A stretch of 64,000 bases of DNA from Bdellovibrionales bacterium. GTDB lineage: Bacteria; Bdellovibrionota; Bdellovibrionia; Bdellovibrionales; UBA1609. Each line of letters opens with the position of its first letter. Positions within the stretch are counted from its first letter, which is position 1. Positions 565 to 18,922 of the stretch are shown piece after piece. The translations under genes and the position numbers were made by a program. The stretch covers positions 1 to 64,000 of the forward strand of contig JAHDFM010000001.1 of assembly GCA_020628165.1 (NCBI GenBank), written 5' to 3'. Below the pieces are notes generated by a model. That model had not been told where the DNA came from, ran no database searches, and saw only the letters and a program-made list of their open reading frames with translations.

Positions 565-969
565 TCAAAATTTTCTGCTAATGACATGTCTATTGTAGTT
601 AATTGCATCTTGAATTCTAATTTTTTGAATAGGTGTAAGGTCATTAATTGGAGTGTATTTATAACCTGAGTGTTCACTGCTTAAAGTAATTTTACAATTT
701 TTTTCAATTTCACATCTAAAAAGCAGAACTTGTGAACTATAATGAGGGTGATAGTAGATTCCAGTGAGTTCTTTTATTTGTGGTTGGCATCCAATCTCTT
801 CAATGCATTCACGTCTTAATGCTTCATGAACTGTTTCAGAGGGTTCCAAAGACCCACCTGGCAAACCCCAAGACTTGTCAGCATAGTTGGCTTTTAATAA
901 TAAAACTTCATTTTTATGATTTAAAATCACAGCATGTACACTCATTCTAAATTTATCTTCATAAGCCAT
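565..969 (-). CDS. Nudix hydrolase
   Basis: A 134-residue single-domain Nudix protein. The Nudix box is visible at about residues 38-60: GGSLEPSE, then REC and IEEIG, fitting GX5EX7REUXEEXGU with the catalytic glutamates present. The family hydrolyses nucleoside diphosphates linked to another moiety, and the substrate cannot be told from sequence. The gene is the last of a tightly packed leftward operon, 14 bases after an MccF-like peptidase. In that setting I infer it could act on nucleotide products or peptide-nucleotide adducts of the pathway. An unrelated housekeeping Nudix gene read from the same transcript is the alternative. The start at 969 is the first Met; a second Met lies eight codons in. 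Confidence 0.88.
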   Translation of the reverse strand: MAYEDKFRMSVHAVILNHKNEVLLLKANYADKSWGLPGGSLEPSETVHEALRRECIEEIGCQPQIKELTGIYYHPHYSSQVLLFRCEIEKNCKITLSSEHSGYKYTPINDLTPIQKIRIQDAINYNRHVISRKF

Positions 970-983
970 AGATAAAATCTGCC

Positions 984-2024
984 TTATATGACCATGTTCT
1001 CTATAAGTTTGAATTCTAATTCATTTTTGCTATTATTTTTCAGCTCTACGTTGGTGCCTTGAGCTAAGGTGATCATTGGTGAAGTGTGGCCACAGTCAAA
1101 ATTATAGACTCTTGGTATGTCTAAGCCATGTAACGCTTCTTCAATCAAATCTTGATAACTGAAGGGTGCCTCTTTAGAATTTATTTTTTCAGGTTTTGAT
1201 ACTATTAATGCTTTAGCTTTTGAAAGCATGCCAATTTGTTTAACCTGAGTCCATTGCCTTTCTTGTAAATCAAAATCAGCAGACATTTCTTCTAAAATTA
1301 TAATTTTATTATTAAAATCTGGGAAATATTTAGTGCCGGTCAGCTTTAACAGAGTGTTTAAGTTGGCTACTACAATAGGACCAGTGATTGTATTATTAAA
1401 ATTAACGCAGTTCCAACCAGGTTGTTCAATGTATGATCGTTCTTTGATCTTCCAATCACCACTGGGAATATCCCTTATATGCCGGCTCCAAACTTTTGGG
1501 GGTGAGATAGTTTGTATAGATTCATTCATGCCAACAGCTGCTAAAAAAGATGATTTAGAATAATCAAGAAAATGTGGATACTCACCAAAGCTGGGCATAA
1601 CAGCAGGTCCGTAAAACGTAGATAAATTTGAAAATTTATTTATAGCCATATGCAAGCTCGTGACATCACTATATCCACAAAAAACCTTAGGGTGAGCTTT
1701 GATCATTTCAAAATCTAAATGGTCAAGCATGGATGAGGAATTTGAGCCTCCAATAGTTGATACAATGCCTTGTATATTCTTATTTAAAAACAAAGACATA
1801 AGTTCATCAGCTCGGTCTTTGCCGCTTGATGTGCGATATCCTTGTGTTTTTAGTGATGCTGTGAGTTTTCCTTCAATGACATTAAAACCTAACTCTTTAA
1901 TCTGATTGATTCCGTGTAAATATTTATCTCTGAAAACAACATGTGCAGGAAATGAGGGTGTGAAAATGCCTATTGTATCTCCGATTTTAAGGCGTGGTGG
2001 TTTAGTTAGTGAGTTGTTCATCAT
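984..2024 (-). CDS. S66 family serine peptidase, MccF-like (microcin C self-immunity type)
   Basis: 346 residues, the usual length for LD-carboxypeptidase/MccF proteins. The nucleophile is Ser119 in FCGYSDVT, a glutamate pair lies at 245-246 (LEE), and His313 sits in DCGHTSP. This matches the S66 Ser-Glu-His triad in order and spacing and is very close to the numbering known for MccF. The GGSNSSSMLDHLD segment at 92-104 is also family-typical. Trp179 and Trp191 lie in the region where MccF enzymes place aromatic residues against the nucleotide, but that placement is inferred. MccF cuts the amide joining the last amino acid to the nucleotide in microcin C, giving self-immunity. A murein-recycling LD-carboxypeptidase is the alternative. 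Co-transcription with an MccB-like enzyme favours MccF. The start overlaps the preceding gene by 23 bases. Confidence 0.85.
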   Translation of the reverse strand: MMNNSLTKPPRLKIGDTIGIFTPSFPAHVVFRDKYLHGINQIKELGFNVIEGKLTASLKTQGYRTSSGKDRADELMSLFLNKNIQGIVSTIGGSNSSSMLDHLDFEMIKAHPKVFCGYSDVTSLHMAINKFSNLSTFYGPAVMPSFGEYPHFLDYSKSSFLAAVGMNESIQTISPPKVWSRHIRDIPSGDWKIKERSYIEQPGWNCVNFNNTITGPIVVANLNTLLKLTGTKYFPDFNNKIIILEEMSADFDLQERQWTQVKQIGMLSKAKALIVSKPEKINSKEAPFSYQDLIEEALHGLDIPRVYNFDCGHTSPMITLAQGTNVELKNNSKNELEFKLIENMVI

Positions 2025-2829
2025 ATTTCCTAAATTTAAAATTTAATAATAAAACTGGAAAAAATATCCATAAATGCCAGAATGATATTCCCATAGTTGT
2101 CCAGATCATTAAATGAAAGAATATTCCAATAATTCCAATATAAAATCTACACCTATAAGACAATATAAGAAAAATTACACTGCCTTCAAATAAAAGTGTA
2201 GCAAGGCCGGAAAACGTCTTAAAAATACTATGTTGTGCTAAGAACTTTCCAAATTGAGTACCACTTTCTAAAATGTAATAGTGTATTGTTTCACCAGTTA
2301 AATACCACTTGATTCCAGAATTAAGAAGTTTAGCTAAAAAAGCTTGAAAATAAATCAACCCAATTATTATTAAGCAAGACGAAATAAGCAACGAAAGCTT
2401 TTTATCTCTATCCAAGCTATTATCATTTTTATATCTCTCATATAATATTGAAATAAAACAAAAATAAATTAAGTGACTATTAAAATTCCATGACTCACTA
2501 ACTAAATTATAATCAAAGTAACTTAAAAAAGAATGCAATAAAAAAAGTATTATTGAAATGTAAAAACCACCTCTATAAATAATTAAGCATGAGGTAGGTA
2601 TAATTAGGTACTTAGAAATATATAAAATAGAGTTAAAAAAAGAATTTGAGATGAGAGTATTATCGCTGAATACTGGATGAGACATTTGAGCGTTAAAAAT
2701 AGATACTGAACCAAAATGTAAGATCAACATAGTAATACCTAACGTTATTTGAAAGTTTCTTAGGGTCTCAGAAGGATTACTATGTTTTTCGATGAGGCCA
2801 TTGAATTTAGATAATAAGCTATTTGGCAT
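2002..2829 (-). CDS. HTTM-type multipass membrane protein (SdpB/VKGC-like)
   Basis: 275 residues with several hydrophobic segments. The C-terminal half carries the look of HTTM proteins (horizontally transferred transmembrane domain, related to vitamin K-dependent gamma-carboxylase): YFQAFLAKLLNSGIKWYLTG, then a conserved FHLMIWTTMGISFWHLW helix. Bacterial HTTM proteins include SdpB, which with SdpA is needed to make the exported SDP toxin of Bacillus. The start codon is one base past the stop of the preceding small membrane protein gene, so the two are probably translated together. I infer a role in membrane-side maturation, transport or immunity for the peptide of this cluster. Family membership is by motif reading only. 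Confidence 0.65.
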   Translation of the reverse strand: MPNSLLSKFNGLIEKHSNPSETLRNFQITLGITMLILHFGSVSIFNAQMSHPVFSDNTLISNSFFNSILYISKYLIIPTSCLIIYRGGFYISIILFLLHSFLSYFDYNLVSESWNFNSHLIYFCFISILYERYKNDNSLDRDKKLSLLISSCLIIIGLIYFQAFLAKLLNSGIKWYLTGETIHYYILESGTQFGKFLAQHSIFKTFSGLATLLFEGSVIFLILSYRCRFYIGIIGIFFHLMIWTTMGISFWHLWIFFPVLLLNFKFRKYDEQLTN

Positions 2830-2830
2830 A

Positions 2831-3193
2831 TTAAAAATCTATTTTGACAGTATCACTATAGGTGCAATCCGTTTTTTTATGAACTTCATCAAATGACATC
2901 CAAGAGGTATTATTGATGCCACTAATAACTTTATTTATGAAATTTTTATTTAATAAATTTTTTTTTATTAAATAATTGGCTCTAAAAAAATCAATTGGTA
3001 GTAAGTTTGCGAGGTTAGATGAACAGGTTATAATATTGTCATTTAAAAAATGTATCTTGATTTTTTTATGAGCACTCGATTTATAAAAACTAAACATATT
3101 ATATGGGGCGACTGGCCAAAATGACTTATTTAATAAGGTTGAGCTTATAGATGTAATAACGAGTATTAAAATCATTAATTTAACTTTTTTCAT
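2831..3193 (-). CDS. Small single-pass membrane protein, partner of HTTM protein
   Basis: About 120 residues from the ATG at 3193. An in-frame ATG 16 codons further up (3241) exists, but using it would overlap the E1 gene by 62 bases rather than 14. The N-terminus is one hydrophobic helix (KKVKLMILILVITSISSTLL) followed by FWPVAPYNMFSFY and an extracytoplasmic domain of about 80 residues with cysteines. The architecture of one TM helix plus a Trp-Pro/Met-Phe motif, encoded directly before an HTTM protein, recalls SdpA next to SdpB, but I see no clear sequence identity to SdpA. Function is unknown and only the pairing is supported. Base composition is even more AT-rich than in the surrounding genes. 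Confidence 0.7.
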   Translation of the reverse strand: MKKVKLMILILVITSISSTLLNKSFWPVAPYNMFSFYKSSAHKKIKIHFLNDNIITCSSNLANLLPIDFFRANYLIKKNLLNKNFINKVISGINNTSWMSFDEVHKKTDCTYSDTVKIDF

Positions 3194-4238
3194 TACAAAA
3201 GCACTTGGGATTCTTTTTAAATTTATATTCAATTTTTTCAAAAGTATCTGTTTTTAATGCCATTCGTTTGCCATAACTAGAAATATCACCATAACCACCA
3301 AGGTACTTTAGTATGTCTGATAGAGCTGCAGATGCAGCTAGGCTATTAATTGGGCTTGCAGAAGGGGACTGGTAGTGTTTATTAATTTCTCTTAATTTGT
3401 CCGACTGATTTATTCCGATAAAGTTATCTATTTCGCAGTTTTGGCAAGCAGTTTTTCCAGGAACAACAAAAGGGCCCCAAACAGCGATGTCTTCTATGTA
3501 TCCAACGTTAATGTATGGAATATTGTTTTCTATACAAAATTTATTAACTAAGAATGTGACGCTAAAAAGCTCGTCGGTATCTCCATCAGCCGATAAAACA
3601 ACTAAATCATAGTCTTTATCTAGCTGATCAAAATCTGAATATTTGTTAAACTTAATATTTTTCGCTTCAACTTGTGTAATCGAGTTTCTTTCATGGATTC
3701 TCTTTTTAAGTATATCTACTTTTTTTTGTCCAACATCTCCTTCAGTAAACATTATTTGTCGAGTCAAGTTTGATGTTTCGACAGTGTCAAAGTCTAGTAG
3801 GTGTATTTCGCCAACTCCTGCTGTAGCGAGTGGTACACCTATATAGTTACCTATGCCACCGCAGCCTATAATCGCAACTTTTGATTTGTTTATTTTATTT
3901 TGAACTTCTTTCGGGTTACTTTTATTTAAGCTAAAATATAAATTATGTCGGCTGTACCGATCATTTTTATTATATTGATTTTCTTCAACTAAAAATTGAC
4001 CAGACTCAAGAGTGTTAATTGAAAGGTCTATAAACTGAAAAAAACGTTGGCCAAATTTTTCAAGTAGTAAGTTTTTAACTTCCAGTGTTGTTTTAGGTGT
4101 TTTCCATATTAGGCAGGCTTCAATAATGATATTATTTAAAATCTCATCTTTAAATTTCTTATTATTAAGTCCTGTTGCTAAGTAAAGCACATCTTTTTCA
4201 GTTGATAATCTTACATAATTTGCCAATAGTTTTTTCAT
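3180..4238 (-). CDS. MccB-like E1/ThiF adenylyltransferase
   Basis: 352 residues, matching the length of microcin C synthase MccB (about 350). Residues 1-100 form an extra N-terminal domain like the peptide clamp of MccB; DRYSRHNLYF at 93-102 then leads into a ThiF fold. Visible elements are the nucleotide-binding GCGGIG at 125-130, LLDFD at 147-151, SNLTRQ at 156-161, GQKK at 170-173, ADGD at 217-220, and two Zn cysteine pairs, C265/C268 and C346/C348. E1 enzymes adenylate a C-terminal carboxylate, and MccB does so to the terminal Asn of its heptapeptide. The upstream gene encodes a short peptide ending in Asn. MoeB/ThiF-type sulfur-carrier activation is the alternative, but no ubiquitin-like carrier ending in GG is nearby. 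The ribosome-binding site is weak, unlike that of the peptide gene. Confidence 0.85.
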   Translation of the reverse strand: MKKLLANYVRLSTEKDVLYLATGLNNKKFKDEILNNIIIEACLIWKTPKTTLEVKNLLLEKFGQRFFQFIDLSINTLESGQFLVEENQYNKNDRYSRHNLYFSLNKSNPKEVQNKINKSKVAIIGCGGIGNYIGVPLATAGVGEIHLLDFDTVETSNLTRQIMFTEGDVGQKKVDILKKRIHERNSITQVEAKNIKFNKYSDFDQLDKDYDLVVLSADGDTDELFSVTFLVNKFCIENNIPYINVGYIEDIAVWGPFVVPGKTACQNCEIDNFIGINQSDKLREINKHYQSPSASPINSLAASAALSDILKYLGGYGDISSYGKRMALKTDTFEKIEYKFKKNPKCFCNEKS

Positions 4239-4271
4239 ATAGTCATCTCTAATTCTTGAGTCTGGTTGATA

Positions 4272-4547
4272 TTAATTACTAACGAGTCTTAATAAGGCTG
4301 CTTCAGAAACTCTGTCATCGATGATCATTTCAACCATTCCTTTTTGTTGAAGATTGTCTTCAACTAAAATTGGTCGAATAGAGTAATCATAGTTATTAGA
4401 AGCTGCGAAGTTCATTACTTTTTGGACCTTAGAGTAATCTTTTAAAGTTAAGACTAAACTATCACTAGCATTGACTTGGTATGATATACCAGACAAGCCA
4501 ATTGTTGCAGACAAAGCTGTGAGTAATCGTTTCTTATTTATTTTCAT
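4272..4547 (-). CDS. Small exported peptide, candidate precursor of the MccB-like pathway
   Basis: 91 residues. The N-terminus is a Sec signal (KKR, then a hydrophobic stretch, then VNA as the likely cleavage site near residue 27), leaving about 64 residues that end LLRLVSN. The C-terminal residue is Asn, the residue adenylated by MccB in microcin C. A strong Shine-Dalgarno sequence (AGGGAGGT, minus strand) precedes the ATG, while the next gene 33 bases on has a weak one. High precursor and low enzyme output is usual for ribosomal peptide clusters. A TATAAT box lies at 4576-4581. Mature segments alternate strand-helix-strand-helix, so a small folded periplasmic protein (ferredoxin-like) is the main alternative. 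I recognise no family. Confidence 0.7.
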   Translation of the reverse strand: MKINKKRLLTALSATIGLSGISYQVNASDSLVLTLKDYSKVQKVMNFAASNNYDYSIRPILVEDNLQQKGMVEMIIDDRVSEAALLRLVSN

Positions 4548-5073
4548 TATTACCTCCCTATGGTTTTTTGAGACAATTATATTTATTAAGTGAAAAGAAA
4601 AGAGTTTCTAGTTACTAAATATCAAAAATATATTTTTTACGAAATGAAGTTTAGTGTAAGACCTGTTAATCAGATTTGAAATGTCATGTTTCATTCATGA
4701 AAAATTGTGGATCAAATATGTGTTCAATTTTTAATTGAAATAGGTAAACACGTGTTAGTATTAATATAATTTTCGTATTTACAAACTATAAGAACTAATT
4801 ATGTATAAATTTTGATTCCAGAACTTAAGATCATACTTGCCAGCACTGCAAAAAAATAATTACTTAATGCCATTCAACAAGTAAATGAGTCTCCTCTGGG
4901 AATTAAATATCTTTTTTGAGGTGAGTCATCTTTTTTCTTGTGAAACACGAAAATATTTAATGCTTAAACTTAGGTTTTAGTGCAAGCAAAGTTCTCTGTA
5001 TAATATTCATACTTGTTTTGAAAGGGATAAAATAAGTTTCTATTGGTATCATTTTTATTATACTTTAGATTGT
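4548..5073. other. Intergenic region between divergent genes
   Basis: A 526-base, very AT-rich gap separating the leftward peptide operon from the rightward methyltransferase gene. It holds the Shine-Dalgarno sequence and a possible -10 box (4576-4581) of the peptide gene. I see no RNA gene, no sigma-54 site and no reading frame of interest in it. Its length leaves room for regulatory sites that I cannot recognise by eye. Confidence 0.5.
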
Positions 5074-6847: not shown

Positions 6848-8809
6848 TTAAGGGCTTGTTAACCCGTTCATAGGGTTGAATCCGCCAAAATCACTGTGTG
6901 TGTTCATGTTAATCCACGGGATTTGATCTGATTCTAGTGGAGACATTTTTTTACGAAACTGAGACTCAGGTGTCGCTACAAGATCTGCTGCGGTGATACC
7001 AATTAAATCCTCATATGCTTTTTTCTTACCCGCATATTTTTTTCTTGAATTCCAATATGGCTTTGCATCCGCTGCTAAAGGTTCTGGATACACTAGAATT
7101 TCATTGCGTTTTGATGGGTAGGTTTGTCGAGGTTCTTTAGGAGAATTGTCATTCTCAAGGTCGGTGGTTCTGTATTTCAATATTTCTTCAACATCGCCAT
7201 TGATACCCATTTCGATCATTTTTTTGTAATCGTCTGGAGTCATTCCTGCAGCCCATTCAAATGGTACAACATTTATATTCCAAGATTGGTCAGCTCGTAA
7301 GTAAACGCCATCTGAGTTTTCATCCATGTTTTGATACATCTCAAGTTTTTCTGAAGAATCAGAGTTGTCTGGGGTGTCTGTATCATCGCCTTCGGGTGTC
7401 TCGGGTTCATCAGAATCATCACCTTCTGGTGTTTTTGGCTCATCTGTATTGCCGCCTTCAGGTGTTTCAGGTTTGTCGCCGCCATCACCTTTTGGTGTTT
7501 TTGGTCCATCTGTATCATTGCCTTTTGGAGTTTTTGGTTCGTCTGAACCATTACCTTCAGGAGTGCTTGGTGTGCTAGGCGTGTTTGGCCCTTCAGGGGT
7601 GTGTGGAGTTTGTGGACCTTCATTATGTTCAGGAGGTTTTGGAGGGGGATTAGTGCCAGTGATGCATCCAATCCCACAAGCAATTGACTCACCAATTTCA
7701 GCGCCTTTTATTGCACCAGGTATAACTCCTGGCCAACCTTTGGTGATTCCTCCGGCTATTCCGCCGATGACGGTGCCAGCAGCTTTACCGAGCGGTGACT
7801 TTTCTTCACACCCAGCAGTGCATTCACCAGCACTGGACATACTAGCTAACTCATCTCTAGTTGCAGAGTTTCCAAATATTGGGCTCGTGGGGTCGTCAGA
7901 TGGGCTGCCTTCGGGTCCACCCTCAGGGTTGCCTGGTCCGTAATGATTTGGGTAACCATCTTCATATTGATCACCACTTTGTTCGAACGGACTACCATTA
8001 TCGGGTCCCAACCCACCATTGTTCATGTTACCAGATGGGTCATCATATGGTCCTTGTGGGTTTGGAGTTTCTCGCCCACCAAAATCGTTATCATAACCAT
8101 GATCTGCGCGATCTCCACCAAGCCCGAATTCACCATTATTCATGTTACCAGATGGGTCATCATATGGTCCTTGTGGGTTTGGAGTTCCTCGCCCACCAAA
8201 GTCGTTGCCATAACCATGACCAGTGCGATCTCCATCGAGGCCAAATGAATCTCCATTGTAATTGGGTCTAGAGTTTCCATCATTCATGTCGCCGAACTGG
8301 CCATGATTGATTTTAAAGTTACTCGAGTCTATTTGAATGTTTTGATCACCAAAACTTCTACTGAACTGAAACAACTCATTAGGGTTATTAATAAGGTTGG
8401 TTTCATTATTAAAGTTTGAGTTTTCACTGATTGGGTCATTTAAACCAAATCGATCACCCAAAGTCTGCGCCATATCAGGGCTCACTATTGATAAGGCATC
8501 ATTGAGCATTTGCGACTGTTTCATTTCGCCAGCACCTAACAAGTAATCCATTTCTGTGAGGGTCGGAATGATAAGACCATTCACTACGCCCATTTTTTCA
8601 ACGCGTTTAAAGATCAAATCACGGTTTACTTTTTCGTTAGGGTTGATCTCGTCAATCATGTTAGCAAAATCTTCTAGTTGATTTTGGTTGACCTTTGATT
8701 GTCTTTCGACTTGAGATAACTGCATGACTTTTTGTTGTGATTTATTTTTTGTAAAACCTACAGAGGTATAAATAAACACAAGCGCAATTATAAAATTTTT
8801 AATTTTCAT
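6848..8809 (-). CDS. Exported repeat-rich protein with glycine-zipper segment (paralogue 1)
   Basis: 653 residues. A signal peptide ends near residue 20. Residues 21-130 form an N-terminal domain shared with the gene at 10364-11845. Residues 193-270 are two 39-residue Gly/Asn/Asp-rich repeats. Residues 309-385 contain SPIFG, RDELAS, GEC and a glycine-zipper stretch (GTVIGGIAGGITKG) bounded by cysteines. Residues 419-482 are six 11-residue Pro/Glu/Asp/Lys repeats, and a C-terminal domain ends near IPWINMN. The zipper suggests membrane insertion or oligomerisation and the Pro-rich part a surface-spanning spacer. I know no named family. A good Shine-Dalgarno sequence and a sigma-54 promoter precede it. 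An adhesin, a pore-forming effector or a structural surface protein are all possible. Confidence 0.85.
   Translation of the reverse strand: MKIKNFIIALVFIYTSVGFTKNKSQQKVMQLSQVERQSKVNQNQLEDFANMIDEINPNEKVNRDLIFKRVEKMGVVNGLIIPTLTEMDYLLGAGEMKQSQMLNDALSIVSPDMAQTLGDRFGLNDPISENSNFNNETNLINNPNELFQFSRSFGDQNIQIDSSNFKINHGQFGDMNDGNSRPNYNGDSFGLDGDRTGHGYGNDFGGRGTPNPQGPYDDPSGNMNNGEFGLGGDRADHGYDNDFGGRETPNPQGPYDDPSGNMNNGGLGPDNGSPFEQSGDQYEDGYPNHYGPGNPEGGPEGSPSDDPTSPIFGNSATRDELASMSSAGECTAGCEEKSPLGKAAGTVIGGIAGGITKGWPGVIPGAIKGAEIGESIACGIGCITGTNPPPKPPEHNEGPQTPHTPEGPNTPSTPSTPEGNGSDEPKTPKGNDTDGPKTPKGDGGDKPETPEGGNTDEPKTPEGDDSDEPETPEGDDTDTPDNSDSSEKLEMYQNMDENSDGVYLRADQSWNINVVPFEWAAGMTPDDYKKMIEMGINGDVEEILKYRTTDLENDNSPKEPRQTYPSKRNEILVYPEPLAADAKPYWNSRKKYAGKKKAYEDLIGITAADLVATPESQFRKKMSPLESDQIPWINMNTHSDFGGFNPMNGLTSP
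7364..7555 (-). repeat. 33-bp tandem repeat coding for 11-residue Pro-rich units
   Basis: Six consecutive units of the type GDDSDEPETPE cover residues 419-482 of the exported protein. Each unit keeps the D-x-P-[KE]-T-P-[KE]-G core while its second to fourth positions vary. Such in-frame repeats can change in copy number by slippage, which would alter the length of the spacer. Confidence 0.85.
8000..8233 (-). repeat. Two copies of a 117-bp (39-residue) coding repeat
   Basis: Residues 193-231 and 232-270 are near-identical, with the core NPQGPYDDPSGNMNNG and a variable start (GDRTGHGYG against GDRADHGYD). The DNA copies are offset by exactly 117 bases and share long identical runs, so the duplication is recent or maintained by recombination. 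Confidence 0.9.
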
Positions 8810-10101: not shown

Positions 10102-10446
10102 CTAAGGGCTCTTTATTAAGTTAATTACATCCACCCTGTTATAGTCTCCTCGTGGATTCTTATTAATCCAAGGTAACTGATTAGGGTTAGCTCTAAAACT
10201 ATTTTGATTGAATTTAAGATAAGGGTTAGTTGCCATCTCTTCAGATGTAATGGAAATAATATTATTATACGTTTGATTATCGATCCAAGAAACTGTTCCA
10301 GGTTTTTTAGAGTACCTTTCATTTTCAAGCCAGTAGTTTGGGCCAGTCATTACATCTATTGGGTTAATAGGATCTACTATATAACCTATACCTGTTTGTT
10401 CCATATAAAATTTGGGGGGGGAACTCTCCATCAATTGGAGATGCAA
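10102..10446 (-). pseudogene. Out-of-frame C-terminal part of paralogue 2
   Basis: The frame entered by removing one C from the C8 tract (10414-10421) continues the upstream protein through about 100 residues to a natural C-terminus, NPNQLPWINKNPRGDY and so on. This end resembles that of paralogue 1 (IPWINMN), which shows that both pieces belong to one ancestral gene of 10102-11845. As it stands this part is untranslated unless the ribosome or polymerase slips. The Met at 10446 is only the first Met of this frame and has no ribosome-binding site of note. Confidence 0.8.
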
Positions 10447-11845
10447 TAATGCTTATATCCATTTCTGGATTTTGTTGGGACGGTTCATTGCTTGATCTCT
10501 CATTGATTTTTTCACTTTTAACATTTTTTTCAGGAACTTTAGGGGTATCTGGCTGATCTGAGTTTTCAGGTTTTGGATTAGGTTTATCAGTCTTTGGTTT
10601 TTGGGGTTTATCTGCATTTTCAGGATTTTTTGGAGGTTTGGGGTTATTAGTGCTATCAGAGTTTTTTGGGGTTTTTGGATTGTCTGAATTTTCAGGAACT
10701 TTAGGGCTGTCAGGTATTTTTGGAGTGTCAGGAAAGTCAGACATTTTAGGTAGTTTAGGCGGTTCGTTTGTCACTGGAAATTTATTTTGACTTGTAATAC
10801 AGCCATAGGAGCAACCAGCCGCAGTCCCAAAGGTAGCGCCTATAGTGGCTCCGGTTGGCACGCCTGCAGGGCCACCTGTGATTCCTCCTACGACAGATCC
10901 TACTATTGTTCCAATTCTCCGCGCTGTGTGACCTTTATTATAACAGGCATAGACACATTCTCCAAGTCTAGACTGACTTGCAATCTCGTCTCTTATAGCA
11001 GGATCTCCAAAAATTGGACTTGTTTGATATCCTTGCTGATTATTATGATAATTATTTGAACTGTTATTTTCATCATAGTTACCTGAGTAACTGTTTCCAT
11101 AAAAATCATTATCAAAGTTATCAATACGAGGGTCATAACCCGAAGTATATAAAACATCATGGTCTTTGCCCGGAGTAAACTCTATATTATTTACGCCATA
11201 CGGATCATAGTGACTTGGAACGTCCCCAGCTTCAAACTGATTATTTAAATTACTATTGAGTGGATCATCACCTTCACTAAATGGGTGTCCATTATGATTG
11301 GGTTCGTAATTTCCATTTCCTATTCTTTGAAATTGTTCATTGCCAAGTAGAAAATTGTCAGTATTAATATCCATTCCTTGATCACCAAAGCTTCTTCTAA
11401 ACTGAAAAATCTCGTTCTGGCTGTTCATATGACTCGATTCATTGTTAGAACTTGAATTTATATTTATGGTTTCATTTAAGCCAAATCTTTCACCTAAGTT
11501 CTTTGCCATTGTTGGGCTAATAATTGATAAGGCGTCGTTGAGCTTTTGCGATTGTTCTATCTTGCCAGCTCCTAATAAGTAATCCATTTCAATGAGGGTA
11601 GGAATGATGATCCCATTGATGAGTCCCATTTTTTCAACCCTCTCTAAAATTAAATAACTATTTACTTTTTCATTTGGATTTATCTGATCAATTAAGTGTG
11701 CAAATTTTTCGAGCTGATCTCGGTTAACTTTGAGATTACTTGCAATCTGAGCTAACTGCACAAACTGTTGTTGTGAATTATTTTTTGTAAAACCTACAGA
11801 GCTGCACATGATTGTTATTACAATTATAAAATTTTTAGCTTTCAT
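10364..11845 (-). CDS. Exported glycine-zipper repeat protein, paralogue 2, shortened by frameshift
   Basis: 493 residues in the current frame. The signal peptide and residues 21-130 closely match paralogue 1 (for example INPNEKVN and MDYLLGAG). The centre is Asn/Gly/Tyr-rich without the 39-residue repeats. SPIFG, RDEIAS, GEC and a cysteine-bounded glycine zipper (GTIVGSVVGGITGGPAG) are conserved, followed by a Pro/Lys/Asn-rich linker. At a run of eight C (10414-10421) translation leaves the ancestral frame and adds about 18 unrelated residues. With seven C the protein would run to 10102, about 580 residues, and regain the shared C-terminal domain. It has the same sigma-54 promoter as paralogue 1. 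It could be an OFF state of a phase-variable gene, a young pseudogene or a sequencing error. Confidence 0.8.
   Translation of the reverse strand: MKAKNFIIVITIMCSSVGFTKNNSQQQFVQLAQIASNLKVNRDQLEKFAHLIDQINPNEKVNSYLILERVEKMGLINGIIIPTLIEMDYLLGAGKIEQSQKLNDALSIISPTMAKNLGERFGLNETININSSSNNESSHMNSQNEIFQFRRSFGDQGMDINTDNFLLGNEQFQRIGNGNYEPNHNGHPFSEGDDPLNSNLNNQFEAGDVPSHYDPYGVNNIEFTPGKDHDVLYTSGYDPRIDNFDNDFYGNSYSGNYDENNSSNNYHNNQQGYQTSPIFGDPAIRDEIASQSRLGECVYACYNKGHTARRIGTIVGSVVGGITGGPAGVPTGATIGATFGTAAGCSYGCITSQNKFPVTNEPPKLPKMSDFPDTPKIPDSPKVPENSDNPKTPKNSDSTNNPKPPKNPENADKPQKPKTDKPNPKPENSDQPDTPKVPEKNVKSEKINERSSNEPSQQNPEMDISIIASPIDGEFPPQILYGTNRYRLYSRSY
10414..10421 (-). repeat. C8 homopolymer tract at the frameshift
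   Basis: Eight C in a row on the coding (minus) strand at residues FPP of the upstream frame. C7 would join the two halves of the gene in frame. Runs of this length are the usual substrate of slipped-strand phase variation, and also of sequencing error. Confidence 0.8.
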
Positions 11846-17689: not shown

Positions 17690-18922
17690 ATGACTGAAGC
17701 TCAAAAAAACTTAAAGAATTATCCTAAATTTTATATTTTCTTTCATGCATATGCTTGGGCTTCTGTTTTCTTTTTATATTTTCTTGAAAACTTACCTATT
17801 GAACAGGTTTTGTTATTAGAGTCTGTCTATTACATTGCCGCTGTTTTTTTTGAAGTTCCGTCTGGTTATTTTTCAGATAGAATTGGGAGAAAACCAACCC
17901 TCATCATTGCAACTCTTGCTCAAATCATCGCTTATAGTTTATTTTTAGTTGGTGGTCACTTTTATGTGTTCTTCTTAGCACAACTATTTTTTGCCATTGC
18001 TTATACTTTTGCCTCAGGGACAGATCAGTCTTTCTATTTCGAGTCAGTGACGCAAACTGAGGGAAAAGCCTCAAGTTATGGGCAACTAGAGGCAAGGCTT
18101 ATGAAAAAAGCCATGTTGTTTCGTTCCTTTTCTCAATTGATGGCAGGAGTGCTCAGTGTTCTTACTCTTAAGTTTGGTTATTTAGTGAGTCTTTTATATG
18201 CACTGACAGCCTTCTTTTATGCAACAAAATTTAATGAACTCAATACAGCTGATAAAACCAAAGAGTCTTTTGCAAAACAGCTTAAGAACAGTTTTAAATA
18301 CTGGAAAAACCCGTTACTGCAATGGGTTGCTTTTTTTGTGCTGATTTTTCAGATAAGCACACATTTTCCCTACGAGTTTTTTCAGAAATACATCGACTTA
18401 CTCAACTTAGGCACTTTGGAAACTTACAAGGGTTACTCGTTAACAACAGTCGTAACAGGTGCGGTTGCCTCCAGTGCAATTTTTATTGCCGCCTTTGTGG
18501 CTGGAAAAAGTATAAATATCAAAAATAAAATTGGTTTTAAAAATACAATGATTCTATCGGTCGCGATCACGGCTCTCATTCTTTTTGGTATGTCGTACTT
18601 TTTGCGGTCTTGGGTTCTACTACTTATTCTAATGCGCTCAATGCCGTCGGCGCTATCGAGAGCGCCGATGAGTGCTGAGATCTCACCACTCATTGCAACC
18701 TCTGAGAGAGCTACATTTATGTCGGTCAATAGCTTAATAGGTCGATTGGGTTATGGTTTAACATTGGTGTTGTTGTCATATGTTGTGAGTGGGAACCCAG
18801 ACAATTGGTCCACCTTAAGTTACTTGAATAAAATTGGCTTTATCATTGCTGTAAGTGGTTTATTTATTTTATTTTGTTGGAGCCAAGTTTTACCAAAGAG
18901 ACCAAATAAAGCCGCTGTGTAA
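17690..18922 (+). CDS. Major facilitator superfamily transporter
   Basis: 410 residues with about 12 hydrophobic helices. The loop between helices 2 and 3 carries the MFS signature in the form GYFSDRIGRKPTL (G-x-x-x-D-R-x-G-R-K/R). The charged middle loop (NELNTADKTKESFAKQ) separates two six-helix halves. Substrate cannot be predicted; the arrangement resembles drug or metabolite efflux members. It follows the DUF4430-like gene by five bases and is probably co-transcribed with it. It sits in the inner membrane. Confidence 0.9.
   Translation: MTEAQKNLKNYPKFYIFFHAYAWASVFFLYFLENLPIEQVLLLESVYYIAAVFFEVPSGYFSDRIGRKPTLIIATLAQIIAYSLFLVGGHFYVFFLAQLFFAIAYTFASGTDQSFYFESVTQTEGKASSYGQLEARLMKKAMLFRSFSQLMAGVLSVLTLKFGYLVSLLYALTAFFYATKFNELNTADKTKESFAKQLKNSFKYWKNPLLQWVAFFVLIFQISTHFPYEFFQKYIDLLNLGTLETYKGYSLTTVVTGAVASSAIFIAAFVAGKSINIKNKIGFKNTMILSVAITALILFGMSYFLRSWVLLLILMRSMPSALSRAPMSAEISPLIATSERATFMSVNSLIGRLGYGLTLVLLSYVVSGNPDNWSTLSYLNKIGFIIAVSGLFILFCWSQVLPKRPNKAAV

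Follow-up and report, generated by a model that had tools for sequence, protein, structure and literature searches.

The window analysed here, the first 64,000 nucleotides of contig JAHDFM010000001.1 of a Bdellovibrionales bacterium (GenBank assembly GCA_020628165.1), carries on its minus strand, from 4547 down to 565, an operon of six tightly packed genes: a 91-aa open reading frame (ORF), mccB, two genes whose products we call X and Y, mccF and a NUDIX gene. Its features, in the direction of transcription, are:

4552–4559, minus strand: Shine-Dalgarno sequence AGGGAGGT, four bases ahead of the candidate precursor's ATG
4272–4547, minus strand: 91-aa mccA-like precursor candidate with an ATG start and its Asn codon at 4275–4277
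4467–4547, minus strand: Sec-type signal region of the candidate, residues 1–27 (MKINKKRLLTALSATIGLSGISYQVNA), called by rule
4275–4466, minus strand: predicted mature part, residues 28–91 (64 aa), possibly beta-alpha-beta-beta-alpha
3180–4238, minus strand: MccB-type peptide adenylyltransferase of 352 aa, a ThiF fold with an N-terminal region (Pfam ThiF, 1.8e-42)
2831–3193, minus strand: protein X, small, hydrophobic near its N-terminus and bearing the motif WPVAPYNMF (the listed ORF begins at a TTG at 3241; the ATG at 3193 is the more likely start)
2002–2829, minus strand: protein Y, a 275-aa multi-pass membrane protein with 5 hydrophobic segments
984–2024, minus strand: MccF-type S66 peptidase of 346 aa, matched to MccF in the PDB and predicted to confer self-immunity
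565–969, minus strand: NUDIX hydrolase (Pfam NUDIX, 2.7e-18), the last gene of the tight run, 14 bases from mccF

By sequence comparison the enzyme is of the MccB type rather than a generic ThiF protein. Its best matches in the PDB are three MccB sequences at about 3e-60 (2.9e-60), with the next family at 5e-17, and it is 34% identical to E. coli MccB over 98% of the length. It has both an N-terminal peptide-binding region and the catalytic Arg, Lys and Asp that a review terms essential in MccB (PMC12250964); R160, K173 and D218 are invariant among six MccBs and the zinc-site cysteines C265, C268 and C346 are kept. No second MccB-like match at E below 1e-20 occurs in the window's genome. The S66 peptidase likewise resembles MccF (2e-56) far more than LD-carboxypeptidases (2e-15), and the Ser, Glu, His and loop Trp of MccF are aligned in it; we take the first three to be its catalytic triad and the Trp to belong to the corresponding loop. 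Self-immunity enzymes of the MccF, MccE, MccH or MccG type are frequent, not universal, in such clusters, and here the MccF-type peptidase would be that enzyme. The initial annotation had named the gene next to the ORF an MccB and read the two as precursor and modifying enzyme; the PDB comparison agrees with the former, and the presence of an MccF-type peptidase in the same operon strengthens the latter as far as context goes, so that the initial interpretation is supported in part. A match of the enzyme to an anti-phage E1-E2 system was confined to the shared ThiF core, and that reading was rejected. ThiF-like RiPP enzymes, RRE-containing ones included, perform several other reactions on C-terminal carboxylates (PMC12250964), raising the possibility that the enzyme amidates, cyclises or forms a thioester on the 91-aa protein and that no peptidyl-nucleotide is made. 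However, it resembles true MccB far more closely than it does other E1-like enzymes, and the known substrate of the MccF-type peptidase encoded beside it is an isoaspartyl-nucleotide; we regard such chemistry as quite improbable.

Because MccB and MccF share one operon, a microcin-C-like pathway is the natural reading, and the operon is very probably a microcin-C-like cluster. It has in common with the E. coli system (mccABCDEF, with MRTGNAN as MccA) the MccB-type enzyme, the MccF-type immunity peptidase and a candidate precursor just upstream of mccB with an Asn end and a strong Shine-Dalgarno sequence. It differs in the precursor, 7 aa in E. coli and 91 aa with a putative signal peptide here, and in its gene content: an E. 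coli-type MccC pump, MccD and MccE are absent, and two membrane-associated proteins and the NUDIX gene are added. Known minimal mcc clusters have an exporter gene, whereas no MFS or ABC export gene lies within 565–4547. An MFS gene with weak similarity to MccC is found 13 kb away (17690–18922, plus strand) and could serve as a pump in trans. X-like and Y-like genes adjoin mccB in two other genomes (G064 and G035). The pair (window 2002–3193, X with a WPxxxYxMF motif) has no Pfam family and thus far stands beside mccB in three genomes; since one genome (G170) carries it alone, with no mcc genes, it represents a wider family, and we rejected it as an mcc-specific exporter. X, Y and the NUDIX hydrolase may each play some part in the pathway. 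In a genome of the same family (G027; L125 7936–9251), an intact mccF whose product shares 60% identity with that of the window follows a truncated Y gene, of which the part for the C-terminus remains (47% over 88 aa); MccB, X and a precursor are missing. The locus appears to be the relic of a cluster such as the window's, decayed except for the immunity gene, and lends support to Y-mccF as the gene order.

The 91-aa product (MKINKKRLLTALSATIGLSGISYQVNASDSLVLTLKDYSKVQKVMNFAASNNYDYSIRPILVEDNLQQKGMVEMIIDDRVSEAALLRLVSN) ends in EAALLRLVSN. With 0.198 bits per codon its frame lies above the gene median (0.173), while the other five frames score −0.17 to +0.03; only this frame has the codon composition of a gene, and it looks coding. 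The Shine-Dalgarno sequence pairs with the anti-Shine-Dalgarno at −13.2 kcal/mol (duplex energy), first among 53 genes of the window and well ahead of the second at −9.3, while that of mccB, which starts at 4238 on the same strand after a gap of 33 bases, reaches −2.9 only. The initial annotation had described an Asn-ended 91-aa peptide with one of the window's strongest Shine-Dalgarno sequences, followed 33 bases on by an enzyme gene with a weak one, and each of these points, together with the coordinates, strand and sequence of the peptide, was reproduced. An Asn end by itself means little, because, when the 835 bases upstream of mccB were dinucleotide-shuffled 1000 times, 758 of the results contained some Asn-ended ORF, and 3 of the 53 window genes have such an end. 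Its combination with a strong Shine-Dalgarno sequence is not chance: only 2 of the 1000 shuffles gave an Asn-ended ORF with a value of −9 or better, and none reached −13.2. These data bear on whether the ORF could be unrelated to mccB and precede it by accident, as might be supposed of a sequence that has neither homologues nor a known domain. With the shared strand, the 33-base gap, the coding-like composition and the first-ranked Shine-Dalgarno sequence, a combination rare in shuffles, this is the least credible of the alternatives we considered.

The search for homologues of the peptide was extended from 59 relatives to 369 genomes of the phylum and then to phage and plasmid records, and found none in any of these; no known family or domain was recognised in Pfam, NCBIfam, PHROGs or PADLOC. 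The weak matches that we inspected reflect chance or signal-peptide similarity: the best of them (in G015) covers only the signal region of a secreted protein of 296 aa that is not related, and another (in G021) is to a SufC-type protein. As no homologue was found in the genomes searched, the substrate role is without comparative support.

Other MccB loci provide a guide to what a precursor should look like. We scanned loci from the same phylum, E. coli, Borrelia, Anoxychlamydiales, a viral contig and Nocardiopsis, and at most of them the precursor is small, ends in Asn and has a strong Shine-Dalgarno sequence. Published MccA precursors, too, all end in Asn after a strong Shine-Dalgarno sequence (PMC6495379), and the two features initially read as precursor marks on the 91-aa ORF, which has both and adjoins mccB, are thus those of published MccA and recur in relatives. 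Within the phylum, 5 of the 369 genomes, the window's own counted, contain an MccB match at E below 1e-35. The nearest MccB that we found (39–41% identity to the window's) comes from a genome of the same order (G040; L039), whose cluster differs from the window's in being canonical, with the heptapeptide MNSTARN after AGGAGG, MccB, an MFS pump and a GNAT acetyltransferase. In G090, MLIKVKATATKKTTKRNAIKVRNAIKVRNAIRVRNAIRVRN accompanies an MFS pump, MccB and a weakly TldD-like protein. The precursor in G064 is 62 aa long, its end being a tandem array of seven VRN units of which six read AGPVRN; the cluster there also encodes an MFS pump, the X-Y pair, a GNAT protein, MccB and a TldD-like protein. 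The last two clusters (L058 6584–10150 in G090 and L059 2948–8392 in G064) are of a tandem VRN-type, long-precursor kind with a weakly TldD-like protein after mccB. On the short contig of the remaining genome (G035; L040 1593–4523), MccB is found with a methyltransferase, a PLP decarboxylase and the X-Y pair, and no precursor was seen at its mccB; in known mcc clusters, genes of these two types serve to decorate the nucleotide. Outside the phylum the precursors are METEIGN (Anoxychlamydiales), MRGKTLN (Borrelia coriaceae), MRTGNAN (E. coli) and MLGKTRN (viral contig), and our scan recognised none at the Nocardiopsis mccB. The Candidatus Anoxychlamydiales cluster (L060 165–2910) combines METEIGN and MccB with a formyltransferase and a HIT-family (MccH-like) protein. 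The viral-classed contig (IMGVR_UViG_3300050175_000025; L118 4812–7135), with mccA, mccB and an mccC-like MFS pump, apparently represents a minimal microcin C cluster on a phage.

A comparable small gene was not found in the window's operon. The scan that yielded known and new precursors at the other loci points here to the 91-aa ORF: among Asn-ended ORFs of 5–120 aa with a Shine-Dalgarno match of at least 5, the region upstream of mccB holds only the 91-aa ORF and its nested in-frame starts, and there is no hidden heptapeptide mccA with a usable Shine-Dalgarno sequence. Over 12 kb, on either strand, the only others with a match of at least 5 are two ORFs of 27–28 aa on the opposite strand. 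An Asn-ended 28-aa ORF at 4608–4694 was rejected, having no Shine-Dalgarno sequence and a non-coding score. Because no small Asn-ended precursor was found in the operon, we take the 91-aa ORF as the leading candidate for mccA.

The N-terminus of the peptide resembles a Sec signal, with a charge of +4, a LLTALSATIGLS core and a site between VNA and SD. It passes a simple signal-peptide rule with a false-positive rate of about 1% (the rule is passed by 22 of 1802 internal 45-mers and by 21 of 2000 shuffles), and by the −3/−1 rule cleavage would fall after VNA. A single-sequence AlphaFold2 model shows a signal helix followed by beta-alpha-beta-beta-alpha with a mean pLDDT of 66.6, falling below 50 over the last four residues; going by this weak, low-confidence model, the mature part may adopt a small fold. 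A Foldseek search with the model gave no significant match (best E 0.026). The signal-like N-terminus and the possible beta-alpha-beta-beta-alpha core also suit the main rival to a precursor, namely an accessory protein that is secreted and folded, such as a periplasmic partner in immunity or processing, and whose Asn end is accidental, the true mccA being short and either elsewhere or lost. Phylogeny leans mildly the same way. In a tree of 11 sequences, from which fragmentary rows were left out, the heptapeptide-type MccBs form a group (support 97/98) to which the window's enzyme is the next branch out (87/84 for the two together), apart from the two repeat-precursor enzymes, with long branches and moderate support for its place. 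The nearest MccBs thus use heptapeptides, and from this position a 7-aa precursor would be expected, which argues mildly against the 91-aa ORF. A canonical-looking minigene for such a peptide, MSLQKWN, does exist elsewhere in the genome. It is intergenic, follows GAGGT (G000:C12:62032-62063; L132) and lies far from mccB; it is probably a chance occurrence, an mccA in trans being possible. However, heptapeptide minigenes are not in excess genome-wide, with 4 pattern matches against 6 in a reversed control, and wherever a precursor was found at another MccB locus, it lies within the cluster. The window's strongest Shine-Dalgarno sequence, moreover, sits on the 91-aa ORF. Weighing these points, we consider an accessory protein unlikely, albeit the most serious competitor.

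We therefore favor, from gene content and sequence features, a microcin-C-like cluster at 4547–565 with the 91-aa ORF as its precursor, and judge this combined reading reasonably probable. The ORF would then probably be a microcin C-type precursor that differs from published ones in length and signal. These are 7–8 or 17–56 aa long (PMC6495379) and are not known to carry a Sec signal, compared with 91 aa and a signal-like N-terminus here; most often they have 7 aa, and production drops sharply when the E. coli one is lengthened (PMC6495379). Since neither a precursor of published length without a signal nor a pump in the cluster is present, the locus is better described as a variant working like microcin C than as a plain member. 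Long precursors do have precedent: microcin C relatives in Hyalangium minutum (36 and 46 aa), Yersinia and Bacillus amyloliquefaciens share with the window, where it is a candidate, a long Asn-ended precursor, and theirs, of 17–56 aa, are modified by their own cognate MccBs. The H. minutum MccBs adenylate the 36- and 46-aa precursors, and a dedicated ABC exporter with a leader peptidase is present there (PMC7157772). In contrast to the window candidate, a Sec signal is not among the reported features of these relatives, and the window MccB groups outside those of them included in the tree. A Sec signal on a cytoplasmically modified RiPP precursor is rare but precedented in the bufferins, and doxX-type membrane genes occur in bufferin/MNIO RiPP clusters (PMC12452194). 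Bufferins and other MNIO RiPPs share with the route proposed here cytoplasmic modification followed by Sec export; they differ in their unrelated enzyme (MNIO), Cys chemistry and copper-binding function.

How the 91-aa precursor might be matured can be envisioned as follows. The strong ribosome site would cause it to be overproduced; in the cytoplasm, MccB would activate its C-terminal Asn with ATP and link AMP, or another nucleotide, to the Asn through a phosphoramidate bond. The signal peptide would route the modified chain through Sec, and signal peptidase would leave a 64-residue peptidyl-nucleotide. The MccF-type peptidase would protect the producer by cutting isoaspartyl-nucleotide released inside it. 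Microcin C products as a class are peptidyl-nucleotides with a P–N bond that inhibit aspartyl-tRNA synthetase; the window's predicted product may be toxic as well, perhaps through the same target. In its full form, in which an MccB-type enzyme nucleotidylates the C-terminal Asn of a 64-residue, possibly folded substrate that leaves by Sec without a dedicated pump, the signal peptide acting as leader, the proposal is tentative, and we rate it as possible rather than probable.

If true, a natural 91-residue, signal-bearing precursor would mean that MccB-type enzymes can act on proteins, and would suggest a route for attaching nucleotides to protein ends. The product would be a longer, differently exported form of a known class of peptide-nucleotide antibiotics, and a further example of a Sec-routed RiPP outside the MNIO group. 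Microcin-C-like clusters are also extended to a phylum where a clear MccB occurs in just 5 of the 369 genomes covered.

Elsewhere in the window, two paralogous secreted proteins with Gly/Pro-rich repeats and no Pfam family are encoded on the minus strand (6848–8809 and 10364–11845). The repeats in both are TPEG/PKTPEG, and the first (6848–8809) also has NPQGPYDDPSGNMNN units.
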